Source: Flagellimonas ochracea
GTDB lineage: Bacteria; Bacteroidota; Bacteroidia; Flavobacteriales; Flavobacteriaceae
Direction of reading: 5' to 3'
NCBI RefSeq assembly: GCF_009903685.1
Contig: NZ_JAAABI010000003.1
Span: 62,001-126,000 of the forward strand
Length of the DNA: 64,000 nucleotides
This document shows, piece by piece, positions 10,135-44,221 of this stretch (position 1 is the stretch's first letter; each line of letters opens with the position of its first letter). The position numbers and the translations under genes were made by a program. The notes beneath the pieces are model-generated. The model was not told the origin of the DNA. It saw only the letters and a list, made by a program, of their open reading frames with translations, and made no database searches.

Positions 10135-10277
10135 CCATCAAAATGAGGATAGATTTGACTGATTGCAACCTCTAAAAATGCTAAAGCAGTTTATTTCAAA
10201 CTCGATTTTTGGTTTCTGCATCGAGATTTGTAAACTCTTTAGACAATTCCGTCAAATATTATCCATAAAAAAGTAGA

Positions 10278-11578: not shown

Positions 11579-11607
11579 TGGTTCAAAGTTCAAACACGTA
11601 TTGAATA

Positions 11608-11714
11608 GTTATCAAGAAAGGTGGAGGGAATAGACCCTATGAAGCCTTAGCAACCCTTGGACCCCAGTTCCAAGAAGGTGCTAAATTCTATCCCAGAAAA
11701 AGGGAATAGATAAC
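11608..11714 (+). ncRNA. SAM-I (S-box) riboswitch upstream of metY
   Basis: The aptamer core is readable: closing stem GTTATC/GATAAC, the conserved AAGAAAGGTGGAGGGA entry, the CCTTAGCAACCC block and the AAGGTGCTAAATTC block. SAM binding should lower expression of metY and the MetX-AK-HSD fusion downstream. About 118 bases separate the aptamer from the metY start. A GGGCTTTTAAGTCCC element near 11767-11781 may be part of the expression platform, but no strong terminator is visible, so control at translation start is equally possible. Confidence 0.95.
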
Positions 11715-11832
11715 GACAATCGACATATTTCGATTTCACTTTCTTATAACTTTTTGATTTCCTGTGGGCTTTTAAGTCCCAAGGGTTTGACTTTTTATTT
11801 TATCGATTTAATAATTTAAAAAGACAAAAATC

Positions 11833-25108: not shown

Positions 25109-25135
25109 TGACCTAGTTCATTTTAAAATTGATTT

Positions 25136-25273
25136 GTTATCAAGAAAGGTGGAGGGATTGGACCCTGTGAAACCTTAGCAACCCTCGGTTTATCCTGATG
25201 CACATCAGGATCTGAGAAGGTGCTACATTCTACCCTTGTTTCCGGTTTTGGAAAATTTAGTGGGAAGGATAAC
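25136..25273 (+). ncRNA. SAM-I (S-box) riboswitch upstream of split metH
   Basis: The closing stem GTTATC/GATAAC, the AAGAAAGGTGGAGGGATT entry, CCTTAGCAACCC and AAGGTGCTACATTC match the first aptamer at 11608. Its P3 arm is longer: a perfect 8-bp hairpin ATCCTGAT-gcac-ATCAGGAT (25192-25211) is set between CTCGG and CTGAG. It should reduce expression of the methionine synthase genes when SAM is high. About 100 bases separate it from the start; no clear terminator is seen there, only a degenerate REP-like repeat. Confidence 0.95.
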
Positions 25274-25335
25274 GTAAATACATTCCATCGTATTTTCTAC
25301 GCTTTTCTTGATAATTAAAAACTGTTTCCTCATGA

Positions 25336-39876: not shown

Positions 39877-40088
39877 ACTTTTGATATATATGAGGACCCT
39901 ATCAGATGGATTGAACTGGAAGTGAACTACTTTTGGTATGGTCTGGGCAATTGAAATTCACAAAAAACAGGCGTTTATTCAAAATAATTTGCAACAAATT
40001 TGGGTTTTTTGAGTAAAATTCAAAAAAAGAGAGTCAAGACAAGGGTTTTTCATTTGAATGGCTATCTTAGCCCAAGATTAGTGTAACA

Positions 40089-40160
40089 ATGACAAGAACG
40101 TATTTCTGGAACGGGTTCTACTTTTACTTCTTTTTTAAGAGAGATGAGGGACTGTTCTGA
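40089..40160 (+). CDS. Phe/Tyr-rich leader peptide of the aromatic operon
   Basis: A 23-codon reading frame ATG to TGA, starting MTRT and continuing YFWNGFYFYFFF (codons 5-16, 40101-40136), then KRDEGLF. Seven of 23 codons are Phe, three Tyr and one Trp. It lies about 140 bases upstream of pheA and is followed by a rho-independent terminator, the arrangement of classical attenuation leaders such as pheL. Ribosome stalling at scarce Phe or Tyr would keep the terminator from forming. The size and the upstream gap explain why gene callers would miss it. Confidence 0.85.
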   Translation: MTRTYFWNGFYFYFFFKRDEGLF

Positions 40161-40216
40161 ATACGATTAAAGTATATCACAATATAAAGTCCCGGTAAAA
40201 ACGGGGCTTTTTTTTT
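40148..40216 (+). promoter_or_regulatory. Attenuator: antiterminator and terminator ahead of pheA
   Basis: The terminator stem AAAGTCCCG (40186-40194) with CGGGGCTTT (40202-40210) is followed by a T tract to 40216. GGGACT at 40148-40153, inside the last codons of the leader peptide, can pair with AGTCCC at 40188-40193, the left half of the terminator. These are mutually exclusive. A ribosome stalled on the Phe/Tyr codons leaves GGGACT free (read-through); a ribosome at the stop codon covers it (termination). The antiterminator stem is short (6 bp), so other pairings may help. Confidence 0.8.
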
Positions 40217-40262
40217 GAATGAAATCCAAATTTGCCTATGTGAATTTGATGATTGAATTCAT

Positions 40263-40297: not shown

Positions 40298-41128
40298 ATG
40301 TCTTTAAAAGTAGCCATACAAGGAATCAAAGGGTCTAACCACCATCAGGTGGCGAAGGAATTTTTCGGAGAGGAAATCCAATTATTGGAGTGTCTTTCCT
40401 TCGATGCTGTGATTGACCATTTGTTGGATGGGAGTGCCGATAAGGGAATCATGGCACTAGAAAACTCCATCGTCGGATCTATCATACCCAACTACAACTT
40501 GGTATACCACAACTGTATTCACATTATTGGTGAGCACTATTTAAACATACACCACAATCTAATGGTATTGAAAGGAACTTCCATTGAAAAAATAAAAGAA
40601 GTTCATTCACATCCTATGGCCCTATTGCAGTGTAAAGAGTTTTTAAAGTCCTATCCGCATATAAAATTGGTAGAAAGTGTGGATACTGCCGAGACCGCAA
40701 AGCGCATCAAAGAGGGTAGGTTGACCAATATTGCTGCCATTGCTCCAAAAATGGCTGCAGATCTCTATGATTTGGATATTATTGCTCCTGAAATACAGAC
40801 CATTAAGAACAACGCCACTCGTTTTATCATTCTAAAAAAACAAAACAAGGTGCTGCCCAAGGAGGAAATAAACAAAGCATCCTTGCGGTTTATAACCGAT
40901 CACAAAAGAGGGAGCTTGGCAACGGTATTGAATGTGATGAGCGACTGTAATATGAACCTTACGAAAATACAATCCCTCCCGGTAATAGAGACTCCTTGGA
41001 AATATGCCTTTTTTGTGGATGTAACATTTGATGAATACGAACATTTTTCCAAGGCCAAATCGTTGTTGAAGATAATGTCTGAAGATTTTAGGGTATTGGG
41101 AGAATACAAAAATGCTTTGTTGCTATGA
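40298..41128 (+). CDS. pheA: Prephenate dehydratase
   Basis: A 276-residue enzyme converting prephenate to phenylpyruvate. The catalytic domain has the T174-R175-F176 motif (NNATRF). A C-terminal ACT domain spans about residues 190-270 (KRGSLATVLNVMSDCNMNLT). The Phe-binding ESRP motif of the ACT domain is replaced by QSLP, so feedback inhibition by Phe may be weak, which fits control by attenuation instead. There is no chorismate mutase domain; that activity is supplied by the fourth gene of the operon. The stop overlaps the next start (ATGA). Confidence 0.93.
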   Translation: MSLKVAIQGIKGSNHHQVAKEFFGEEIQLLECLSFDAVIDHLLDGSADKGIMALENSIVGSIIPNYNLVYHNCIHIIGEHYLNIHHNLMVLKGTSIEKIKEVHSHPMALLQCKEFLKSYPHIKLVESVDTAETAKRIKEGRLTNIAAIAPKMAADLYDLDIIAPEIQTIKNNATRFIILKKQNKVLPKEEINKASLRFITDHKRGSLATVLNVMSDCNMNLTKIQSLPVIETPWKYAFFVDVTFDEYEHFSKAKSLLKIMSEDFRVLGEYKNALLL

Positions 41129-42267
41129 CTACCGCAGATAGATTAGATAGTGTGCAAGAATACTACTTCTCCAAGAAGTTGAGGGAAGTAAGGGGACTCA
41201 TGGAACAAGGCCGTCCCATAATCAACATGGGGATAGGTAGTCCCGATTTGGCACCATCTCCTGATGTTTTAAAAACGCTGACAACAGCTATTGCTGATTC
41301 GGGAGCCCACCAATACCAGAGCTATCAGGGTCTTCCAGAACTTAGAAAGGCCATTGCAGACTTTTATCAAAGAAAATTTGACGTTTCGGTTGATGCTGCA
41401 CAAGAGATTTTGCCCCTTATGGGCTCCAAAGAAGGCATAATGCATATCAGCATGGCTTTTTTGAATGAGGGCGACCAAGTGCTTTTGCCCAATCCTGGAT
41501 ACCCTACCTATGGGGCTGTGACCAAACTTGTGGGAGGAGAACCTATTTATTACGACCTTAAAGCTGAAAACGGTTGGTTTCCAGATTTGGAACAGCTCTC
41601 CAAAATGGATTTGTCAAAAGTAAAACTGATGTGGGCAAGCTACCCCCATATGCCCACTGGGGCAACAGCTACAAAATCACAGCTGAAAGCATTGGTAGAT
41701 TTTGTAAAAAAACATGATATTCTTTTGGTCAATGATAACCCATACAGCTTCGTACTTTCCAAAAACCCTACGAGCATCTTATCCATTGACGGGGCCAAAG
41801 ATTGCACCATGGAACTAAATAGTTTGAGCAAGACATTTAACATGGCAGGTTGGCGTGTAGGTATGGTTTTGGGTAATGCTGACCATATTACGGCCATACT
41901 AAAGGTAAAAAGTAATATGGATTCCGGTATGTTCTACGGCATTCAGAAAGGTGCTGTGGTTGCTTTGCAAAGTGGCACTGAGTGGTTTGACACATTGGAT
42001 CAAGTTTACAATAAGAGAAGAGAACTTATGTTCCAATTAGTCGAAAAGTTAGATTGCGAATACGATAAAGATGCAGTTGGAATGTTCGTATGGAGCAAGT
42101 TACCTAAGAACTCACCTCCTTCCGAAGCGTTCATTGATGAGATACTGTATGAGAAGGACATCTTCATTGCACCGGGAACCATATTTGGCAGCAATGGAGA
42201 AGGATACATCCGATTTTCGCTTTGCGTAAAGGAAGAAAAAATTAAAGAAGCTCTGGAAAGATTTTAG
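41125..42267 (+). CDS. Class I/II aminotransferase of the aromatic operon
   Basis: A 380-residue fold-type I PLP aminotransferase. The PLP lysine is Lys236 (SLSKTFNMAGWRVG), and the conserved YPHMPTGA and NDNPYSF segments precede it. Set between pheA and tyrA with a 4-base overlap upstream and 2 bases to the next gene, it most likely transaminates phenylpyruvate and 4-hydroxyphenylpyruvate to Phe and Tyr. An LL-diaminopimelate- or aspartate-type specificity cannot be excluded from sequence alone. Confidence 0.9.
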   Translation: MTTADRLDSVQEYYFSKKLREVRGLMEQGRPIINMGIGSPDLAPSPDVLKTLTTAIADSGAHQYQSYQGLPELRKAIADFYQRKFDVSVDAAQEILPLMGSKEGIMHISMAFLNEGDQVLLPNPGYPTYGAVTKLVGGEPIYYDLKAENGWFPDLEQLSKMDLSKVKLMWASYPHMPTGATATKSQLKALVDFVKKHDILLVNDNPYSFVLSKNPTSILSIDGAKDCTMELNSLSKTFNMAGWRVGMVLGNADHITAILKVKSNMDSGMFYGIQKGAVVALQSGTEWFDTLDQVYNKRRELMFQLVEKLDCEYDKDAVGMFVWSKLPKNSPPSEAFIDEILYEKDIFIAPGTIFGSNGEGYIRFSLCVKEEKIKEALERF

Positions 42268-42269
42268 GT

Positions 42270-43130
42270 ATGAACGTAGTCGTTGTCGGAATAGGATTGA
42301 TAGGTGGGTCTTTTGCCAAAGATGTAAAGGCACTATATCCAAACGTTCATATAATTGGGATTGACAATAGTGACAATCATCTGGAGGAAGCTTTGGAGCT
42401 GCAAATCATAGACGAAAAGGGGAGTTACGACGCCTTGTCACAGGCCGATGTAATCTTCGTGAGTATTCCGGTCAACGCTATGGTCAGGGAATTGCCAAAG
42501 ATCTTGGATGCCGTAGGAGAGGAAACCGTTGTGATCGATGCAGGTTCTACCAAAGAGTTGATATGCCAGTCGGTGGCGGAACACCCAAAGAGAAGAAATT
42601 TTATGGCATGCCACCCCATTGCGGGGACTGAATTTTCAGGACCATCAGCGGCTATGGAAGGCTTGTATGAGGGAAAGACCAACATCATCTGTGAGGTGGA
42701 AAAGACGGCTTTTAAATTGCAGGAACGCGCTTTAGCTATTTTTCAGGATATGAAAATGCGCATTCGGTACATGAATCCAGTGGCCCACGATAAACACATT
42801 GCATATGTAAGCCATTTATCTCATATCAGCTCGTTTATGCTGGGAAAAACGGTTATCGAAAAGGAGAAAAACGAACGGGACATTTTCGATATGGCGGGGA
42901 GTGGTTTTGAAAGTACGGTCAGGTTGGCGAAAAGCTCACCGGAAATGTGGACACCCATTTTTGAGCAGAATCGTGAAAATGTGGTCGAAACTTTGGAGGA
43001 ATACATCCAAAATCTGGAAACTTTCAAACAATTATTGAAGGATAAGGATTTTGATAACGTCTATCGCGAAATGAGTGACACGAATAGAATAAAACAAATA
43101 TTAAAAGGAATTCCACTTACAAAAAAATAG
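42270..43130 (+). CDS. tyrA: Prephenate dehydrogenase
   Basis: A 286-residue NAD(P)-dependent dehydrogenase converting prephenate to 4-hydroxyphenylpyruvate. The N-terminal Rossmann motif is VVGIGLIGGSFA at residues 5-16. The substrate-binding segment MACHPIAGTEFSGP and the helical C-terminal dimerisation domain (HIAYVSHLSHISSFML) are present. It lacks an ACT domain. Tightly spaced in the aromatic operon (2 bases after the aminotransferase, 8 before the DAHP synthase). Confidence 0.93.
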   Translation: MNVVVVGIGLIGGSFAKDVKALYPNVHIIGIDNSDNHLEEALELQIIDEKGSYDALSQADVIFVSIPVNAMVRELPKILDAVGEETVVIDAGSTKELICQSVAEHPKRRNFMACHPIAGTEFSGPSAAMEGLYEGKTNIICEVEKTAFKLQERALAIFQDMKMRIRYMNPVAHDKHIAYVSHLSHISSFMLGKTVIEKEKNERDIFDMAGSGFESTVRLAKSSPEMWTPIFEQNRENVVETLEEYIQNLETFKQLLKDKDFDNVYREMSDTNRIKQILKGIPLTKK

Positions 43131-43138
43131 AACATAGT

Positions 43139-44221
43139 ATGGAAAACAATAAGCAAATGCGAAAATGGTTGGATGATATGAACCTGCCACATCCGTTGGT
43201 AATAGCCGGACCGTGTAGTGCTGAAACCGAGGAGCAGGTTTTGAAGGTGGCCCATGATCTGAAGGACACTGATGTGAACTATTATCGAGCAGGAATCTGG
43301 AAACCCAGAACACGTCCAGGTAATTTTGAGGGAGTTGGGGCCATTGGATTGAAATGGCTTCAAAAGGTAAAGGAGGAAACCGGATTGAAAACAGCTACTG
43401 AAGTAGCCAATAGAACCCATGTAGATCTGGCTCTGGAACACGATGTTGACTTATTATGGATAGGCGCAAGATCCACAGTTAGCCCTTTTATTGTGCAAGA
43501 AATTGCAGATGCGCTGAAAGGAACGGATAAAGTCGTTTTGGTCAAAAATCCCGTAAATCCAGATTTGTCCCTTTGGCTTGGAGCCGTTGAAAGACTAAAC
43601 TCTGCCAATATTGAAAAATTAGGGGTCATTCATCGAGGTTTTTCCACGTACGAAAAAACAAAGTATCGCAACATTCCAGAATGGCAGTTGGTCATCGAGT
43701 TGCAGACACGTTACCCAGATTTGCCCATTATCAACGATCCAAGCCATATTACAGGAAAACGGAATATGATTTTTGATGTATCCCAGACCGCATTGGATTT
43801 AAATTTTGATGGGTTGATGATTGAGACCCACTGCGATCCAGACAATGCCTGGAGTGATGCCGCACAACAAGTAACCCCGGATAGATTGGTTCAGATTATG
43901 AAAAACCTTCGAATTAGAAAAGAAACCGACGAACAAGCCGAGTACAATAGTAAGTTGAGCAATCTAAGGGCACAGATAGATGTAATCGACAATCAGTTGA
44001 TTGAGATTATGGGAAAGCGGATGAAAGTCTCGGACGAAATCGGAGCCCTCAAAAAGAAACGAAACGTGGCGGTGCTGCAAAGTAACAGATGGAATGCCAT
44101 TTTAGGCAATATGATCTTGGAAGGAGAACAACGAGGACTGAGTGAAGAATTTGTCTTGAAAATGTTCAAGGCAATACACCAAGAATCTATAAACCATCAA
44201 GAAAAAATCATCAATACGTAA
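43139..44221 (+). CDS. Bifunctional DAHP synthase / chorismate mutase
   Basis: A 360-residue fusion. Residues 1 to about 265 are a type I-beta 3-deoxy-7-phosphoheptulonate synthase (PLVIAGPCSAETEEQVL, AGIWKPRTRPGNFEG, NDPSHITGKR). Residues from about 270 are an AroQ chorismate mutase (LRAQIDVIDNQLIEIMGKRM, then VSDEIGALKKKRNV). It covers both the entry step of the shikimate pathway and the branch point to Phe/Tyr. As last gene of the operon it is under the same leader-peptide attenuator, so Phe/Tyr supply would gate the whole route. Confidence 0.95.
   Translation: MENNKQMRKWLDDMNLPHPLVIAGPCSAETEEQVLKVAHDLKDTDVNYYRAGIWKPRTRPGNFEGVGAIGLKWLQKVKEETGLKTATEVANRTHVDLALEHDVDLLWIGARSTVSPFIVQEIADALKGTDKVVLVKNPVNPDLSLWLGAVERLNSANIEKLGVIHRGFSTYEKTKYRNIPEWQLVIELQTRYPDLPIINDPSHITGKRNMIFDVSQTALDLNFDGLMIETHCDPDNAWSDAAQQVTPDRLVQIMKNLRIRKETDEQAEYNSKLSNLRAQIDVIDNQLIEIMGKRMKVSDEIGALKKKRNVAVLQSNRWNAILGNMILEGEQRGLSEEFVLKMFKAIHQESINHQEKIINT

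Follow-up and report, generated by a model that had tools for sequence, protein, structure and literature searches.

What turns the genes for phenylalanine and tyrosine synthesis on and off in flavobacteria? The question is raised by a locus of Flagellimonas ochracea in which a very short frame, rich in Phe and Tyr codons, lies upstream of pheA. This locus belongs to a stretch of 64,000 nucleotides that is here called the window, and positions are those of the window unless stated otherwise. The initial annotation took the short frame for the leader peptide of a classical attenuator; its claims are discussed below together with the evidence gathered from related genomes.

The leader frame, its terminator and the operon

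The leader peptide gene, MTRTYFWNGFYFYFFFKRDEGLF, was defined from the frame call and its conservation in relatives; it occupies positions 40089-40160 of the forward strand, has 23 codons, of which ten specify Phe or Tyr and one Trp, and ends with a stop codon at 40158-40160. Codons 5-16, YFWNGFYFYFFF (40101-40136, forward strand), are regarded as the control codons from the substitution ratios given below; they specify Tyr, Phe and one Trp, with Asn-Gly at codons 8-9. A gap of 25 bases separates the leader from an intrinsic terminator (40186-40216, forward strand), whose hairpin, 40186-40210, has nine pairs, five of them G-C, and whose T tract runs to 40216; another 87 bases lie between the hairpin and pheA. 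The aromatic run at codons 5-16, the rho-independent terminator after the leader, and the complementarity of GGGACT in the last leader codons (40148-40153) to AGTCCC of the terminator (40188-40193) had all been pointed out in the initial annotation, and each was confirmed.

Downstream, on the same strand, are pheA (40298-41128), encoding prephenate dehydratase (PF00800, PDT, 195.8 bits with a cut-off of 25.2; the NCBIfam prephenate dehydratase profile gave 196.2 bits, under its cut-off of 219), a gene for a class I/II aminotransferase (41125-42267; PF00155, 214.1 bits), tyrA for prephenate dehydrogenase (42270-43130; NCBIfam NF006307, 394.9 bits, cut-off 295), and a gene for a DAHP synthase-chorismate mutase fusion (43139-44221; PF00793, 126.5 bits, and PF01817, 77.5 bits). 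The Pfam and NCBIfam profiles bear out the gene assignments that had been proposed for this operon, and the same order is kept in 76 of the 80 named loci. The gene upstream of the leader, gldA, is on the opposite strand. PheA is up to 90% identical to its counterparts on named contigs, an identity by which the window falls among the Muricauda/Flagellimonas-like members of the Flavobacteriaceae.

The promoters of Bacteroidetes consist of TTG, about 19 bases and TAnnTTTG, the -7 element being also written TAnnTTnG. A candidate -7 element that fits the latter form, TATCTTAG, is present at 40063-40070 on the forward strand; the window shows this -7 part alone, with no evident TTG at the expected distance upstream. 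Among 146 genomes of the family, 96 have TTG-N18-20-TANNTTNG within 75 bases before the leader, compared with 1.5 per 146 in shuffled sequences.

A covariance model (R1) built from relatives together with the window sequence gave a single strong full-length match in the F. ochracea genome, the window locus itself, with 131.3 bits. A second genomic copy of the attenuator was rejected: the 23 other matches all score at most 33.9 bits, 20 of them cover the 3' part alone, and the second-best (33.9 bits) corresponds to the 3' part with the terminator only.

Conservation of the leader and constraint on its codons

A pheA gene was found in 178 of 199 genomes, and 150 places were listed and examined. 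Using the looser version of the frame scan (at least six aromatic codons in 12), a Phe/Tyr-rich frame was detected before pheA in 146 of the 150 Flavobacteriaceae genomes, each of which represents a genus of its own, and in 144 of the 150 it was accompanied by a scored terminator. The initial annotation had named the lack of a conserved frame or terminator in relatives as evidence against its reading; these counts do not refute it. A stricter frame, with at least seven Phe, Tyr or Trp codons in 12 and within 500 bases 5' of pheA, was seen in 144 of the 149 family genomes and in 42 of 1490 dinucleotide shuffles; the leader frame is real, and far above chance. Frame and terminator are also present in 79 of the 80 named loci, the 80th having 149 bases upstream. 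In one of the genomes in which the frame was uncounted (G048) the sequence ends 128 bases upstream of pheA, and an aromatic run and a terminator are visible by eye; two others (G195 and G095) have the frame and a hairpin visible by eye that the scan did not count as a terminator. No leader was seen upstream of pheA in G013, G023 and G035, the last with 373 bases available; G013 and G035 (L369 and L371) retain the whole operon.

Outside the family, 34 pheA loci from other families of the Bacteroidia were examined, comprising 33 of the 34 matches of one search plus G383. The leader is clear, as judged by eye, in 21 of them, borderline in two (G485 and G535) and absent from 11; of the 21, a terminator was found in 18 by one scan and in G229 and G275 by another. 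Outside the class, none of 29 loci of the phylum, which were the top-scoring matches and not a fair sample, showed a frame with 6/12 aromatic codons. Within the order, no leader precedes pheA in five genomes of family f2 (G210, G399, G453, G465 and G290), while four order-mates (G613, G612, G636 and G626) do carry it; in G210 and G399 the aminotransferase, tyrA and DAHP synthase genes are also absent beside pheA. From this distribution, leader-peptide attenuation looks like the usual control of Phe and Tyr synthesis across the Flavobacteriaceae, extending into other families of the Bacteroidia.

A different arrangement was observed in G632, where two tandem leader-terminator units, both Phe-rich and without Tyr, precede pheA (L372:160-440). 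This genome, which is 83% complete, has no tyrA match within the 6.4 kb analysed at the locus, nor any match to PF02153 genome-wide. Prephenate dehydrogenase was likewise unmatched in G579, whose leader has one Tyr codon, and in G554, whose leader has four; matches to this enzyme are only weak in several genomes, which limits the comparison with Tyr codons.

The constraint on the codons was evaluated with 73 unique 23-codon leaders from the named loci, taken with no residue filter. For codons 10-16, pS is 0.502 and pN is 0.030, and the resulting pN/pS ratio of 0.059 compares with 0.298 for codons 5-7, 0.804 for codons 2-4 and 0.767 for codons 17-20; third codon positions drift and the identity of Phe and Tyr is retained. 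An earlier run used 94 unique 23-codon leaders of 108 and a pattern that demanded aromatic residues at codons 7, 10, 12 and 14, and its pN was biased because this pattern selected the rows; the unfiltered repeat gave nearly the same result. By these ratios, the amino acids of the aromatic run are maintained by purifying selection, and from the coding constraint we infer that the leader frame is translated.

Both Phe and Tyr codons are present in all 146 leaders of the family, with at least two of each in 145. Among the 73 unique leaders mentioned above, codon 7 stands for Trp 59 times, for Tyr 8 times and for Phe 6 times. The proposal that one leader senses both Phe and Tyr, and perhaps Trp, thus has good support for the first two residues, from conservation, coding constraint and compensated helices; Trp is only suggested, as a possible but unproven sensed residue. 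Codons 13-15 (40125-40133) are near-fixed in their nucleotides (TAC in 66, TTC in 73 and TTT in 71 of the 73 leaders), a constancy that exceeds the need for particular amino acids, and the predicted fold has a small inner hairpin with AAGAGAG at this place.

Alternative helices and the position of the ribosome

Three helices are predicted on the forward strand. Strand 1 (40099-40119), defined from the predicted fold and the pairing in relatives, would pair with strand 2 (40148-40165), which comprises the last leader codons and the stop, through 40099-40105/40159-40165, 40108-40114/40152-40158 and 40116-40119/40148-40151. GGGACT in strand 2 is one half of the antiterminator, its partner being AGTCCC in strand 3 (40186-40194), the 5' arm of the terminator. 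Folding of 40080-40218 gave the 1:2 helix together with the terminator (3:4 helix), with a z-score of -2.14. When the 3' arm of the terminator was omitted, the GGGACT/AGTCCC antiterminator appeared in the minimum-energy structure; the stability of this truncated fold is no better than that of shuffles (z 0.40), and the antiterminator is absent from its centroid structure.

Pairing in relatives was followed in two alignments, A1 (103 unique of 107 leaders) and A2 (62 unique of 75), and another 62 leaders are part of neither; A1 and A2 were chosen by peptide patterns that include the last residues, and the within-group percentages lean towards pairing because these patterns overlap strand 2. In the first group (Maribacter/Muricauda-like), 98.1% of the cells are paired in the terminator, with two-sided changes in five pairs, and 96.5% in the antiterminator, with two-sided changes in three. 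The 1:2 helix of this group, in a register of two subgroups that was the analyst's choice, is paired in 95.1% and 75.5% of the cells, against 64.4% and 53.6% in the best slid controls. For the second group, ATTATACATA with TATGTATAAT forms the 1:2 helix, which is 88.5% paired (best slid control, 64.7%), the antiterminator is 98.4% paired with no covariation, and the terminator is 99.2% paired.

The end of the leader and the terminator arm were also compared between lineages, using 165 leaders with a scanned terminator outside the named loci and ignoring kinship. Where the arm is GTCCC (n=48), GGGAC is found near the leader end in 36 and GAGAC in none; where it is GTCTC (n=79), GAGAC is found in 43, or 76 counting G-U pairs, and GGGAC in 3; GGAAC, a non-complement that gauges the level expected by chance, is found in 14 of these 79. 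This matching is clear-cut one way only, because GGGAC ends could form G-U pairs with GTCTC arms (47/48). GTCCT arms (n=17) are accompanied by AGGAC in 6, or 13 counting G-U, and the smaller classes seldom have the exact complement (ATCCC, 1/7; GTTCC, 1/4). Over the full set of 244 leaders for which the scan had located a terminator, again ignoring kinship, the pairing score with the partner of the same genome was 17.1 for helix 2:3 and 16.7 for helix 1:2, against 14.2 (sd 0.18) and 13.0 (sd 0.23) with a foreign partner. Codons 7 and 23 pair in 77 of 124 rows, and none of 10000 shuffles exceeded 72; the result is modest, since the rows were picked by residue pattern, with groups mixed and kinship ignored.

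These comparisons support three mutually exclusive helices, and the last leader codons usually differ so as to match a changed terminator arm. Compensatory changes in both stems, which had been suggested as a check, are seen as the two-sided changes in the terminator and antiterminator of the first group and as the arm matching between lineages. The locus therefore combines the features of a leader-peptide attenuator, namely an aromatic frame, a terminator, the exclusivity of 2:3 and 3:4, and a 1:2 helix that overlaps the control codons and the stop.

To model the effect of a ribosome, the RNA was folded with the terminator lacking its 3' arm, the ribosome being assumed to cover 13 bases counted from the start of the codon. 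For the window sequence, the predicted occupancy of the 5' arm by the antiterminator is 0.64-0.72 with the ribosome on the aromatic codons and 0.08 with the ribosome at the stop; eight hand-picked relatives gave the same direction, the weakest being G314 (0.52-0.75 vs 0.33). Since the antiterminator has an occupancy of 0.59 in the window even without a ribosome, the 1:2 helix would not be a clean guard. Once the full terminator of the window has been made, folding prefers it in almost all states, with 0.95 when the ribosome is on the first of the aromatic codons; the switch must therefore be kinetic, and be decided while RNA polymerase passes.

Mechanism, rival readings and known attenuators

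The locus is very probably a ribosome-mediated transcription attenuator of the pheA-aminotransferase-tyrA-DAHP synthase/chorismate mutase operon that senses charged tRNA-Phe and tRNA-Tyr, as the sequence comparisons and the folding models suggest. A ribosome would translate the 23-codon frame as RNA polymerase transcribes the leader. With ample charged tRNA-Phe and tRNA-Tyr, the ribosome would get to the stop codon (40158-40160) and cover strand 2, the terminator hairpin (40186-40210) would form, and transcription would end. If Phe or Tyr is short, the ribosome would stall within codons 5-16 and mask strand 1, leaving strand 2 free to pair with strand 3 through GGGACT and AGTCCC; the terminator would then not form in time, and the operon would be transcribed. 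Stalling, read-through and the amino-acid signal are the steps that we infer; that stalling for lack of Phe or Tyr turns the operon on is suggested by the wide conservation of the tiny gene and its stop signal. The identification as a leader-peptide attenuator made in the initial annotation thus has good support, from the conservation of the element, from the constraint on its codons and from helices that exclude one another and show compensating changes. A broader proposal, which we put forward tentatively as having a somewhat less than even chance, is that this leader works as an OR gate that responds to a shortage of Phe or Tyr and, for most of the group, of Trp as well, through the interchangeable aromatic codon 7. 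Such a gate would open the entire pathway that leads from DAHP synthase to Phe and Tyr, would be ancestral to much of the Bacteroidia, and would have been kept as the peptide, the terminator and the helices changed in concert.

Other explanations can be considered for the same data. An RNA structure that directly binds Phe, Tyr, another ligand or a protein, as a riboswitch or a protein-controlled attenuator with an incidental frame, would agree with the structured 5' region and terminator before the operon and with the near-fixed nucleotides of codons 13-15; however, the low pN/pS of codons 10-16 points to selection on translation, the helices overlap the control codons and the stop codon like those of leader-peptide attenuators, and no Rfam family reaches its cut-off here, so that this reading is very unlikely. 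No riboswitch or T-box was listed at the locus by the Rfam search with E up to 10, and a sub-threshold match to a PyrR binding site was listed in it. We consider it very unlikely that the leader product acts as a small protein in its own right, or as an arrest peptide that senses something other than charged tRNA. Its sequence in the named loci (mostly YFWN.FYFYFFF) is indeed more constant than control codons would need, but the constancy of its ends largely fits helices 2:3 and 1:2, and between groups the peptide drifts widely while its richness in Phe and Tyr stays (e.g., MTVHYTYFNNWFYFFFSKRNEALYV and MKSFTYAYYFFFYFYFYHKVEREFVCIK).

The last reading, an ordinary terminator of an upstream unit next to a chance frame, would draw on the fact that terminators are common and that many places in the F. 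ochracea genome match the 3' part of R1 with low scores. It is extremely improbable, given that gldA is transcribed from the other strand and that frame and terminator occur together in 144 of the 150 family genomes, a conservation that weighs against this reading. If the ribosome-mediated attenuator is confirmed, it would imply transcription-translation coupling in flavobacteria, and leaders of this type would be ready-made sensors of aromatic amino acids for these bacteria. According to parts of PMC9723704, flavobacterial mRNAs are without Shine-Dalgarno sequences.

The design itself is classical. Enterobacterial pheL has a short Phe-rich leader gene, exclusive helices and an intrinsic terminator before pheA, a likeness that extends to the locus described here; ilvL and thrL of enterobacteria are leaders for more than one amino acid, and resemble it in that one leader answers several residues, although these are other amino acids in another lineage. 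Unlike pheL, the F. ochracea leader mixes Tyr with Phe and its operon also holds tyrA and DAHP synthase-chorismate mutase; the Rfam family Phe_leader (RF01859) gave 23.7 bits at the locus (E 0.091), under its cut-off of 55. A 2010 survey by Lopatovskaya and colleagues is said to have possibly predicted some attenuators in Bacteroidetes.

Another related element is the Bacteroid-trp RNA (RF01692), a predicted attenuator of Bacteroidetes (PMC2864571, Table 1), which is stated in part of PMC6414381 to resemble a Trp leader-peptide attenuator; it differs in having Trp codons, another sequence and a position upstream of trpE, and it was not listed at the window locus (cut-off 49 bits). Frames reminiscent of leader peptides are mentioned for B. 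thetaiotaomicron in a portion of PMC7366714. In the relevant passage of a 2010 survey (PMC2965389), leader-peptide attenuation, ermC aside, is said to have been known only in Proteobacteria and Actinobacteria before the authors' case in Firmicutes. A literature search, thin on subscription journals, found no description of a Phe/Tyr leader in this phylum. Nevertheless, sections of PMC9723704 (2021) report that pheA of Flavobacterium psychrophilum is preceded by a structured and conserved 5' element, present in other genera of the Flavobacteriaceae and with no Rfam hit, and they describe strong clues for leader-peptide attenuation ahead of amino-acid operons in this species. The two elements are alike in being structured, shared by several genera and absent from Rfam, and they are probably the same; the section on the F. 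psychrophilum element gives no leader sequence, Phe/Tyr assignment, helix comparison or spread beyond the family. With this report and with Bacteroid-trp in Rfam, the suggestion that such a leader might be undescribed in the lineage does not hold. The element had been noticed earlier in outline, and the dual Phe and Tyr control region is its less usual aspect.

Other leaders were observed in the F. ochracea genome. A Trp leader, MKNHIANTWWWINLRRTS, with the residues WWW and a terminator (L132, G000:C33:318954-319066, minus strand), scores 66.3 bits as Bacteroid-trp; trpE (PF04715 and PF00425) begins about 490 bases beyond it, with a GIY-YIG gene (PF01541, 30.2 bits) between them. A His leader, MRINNTHHHLYPCSQAR, lies upstream of hisG (L306, G000:C11, near 780.9 kb, minus strand) and is followed by a terminator-like hairpin recognised by eye. 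No leader of ilvD was obvious by eye in this genome, which with its Phe/Tyr, Trp and His leaders carries three of the same design. The window also contains two SAM riboswitches (RF00162), at 11606-11716 and 25134-25275, and a SAM-II riboswitch (RF01726) at 10139-10194.
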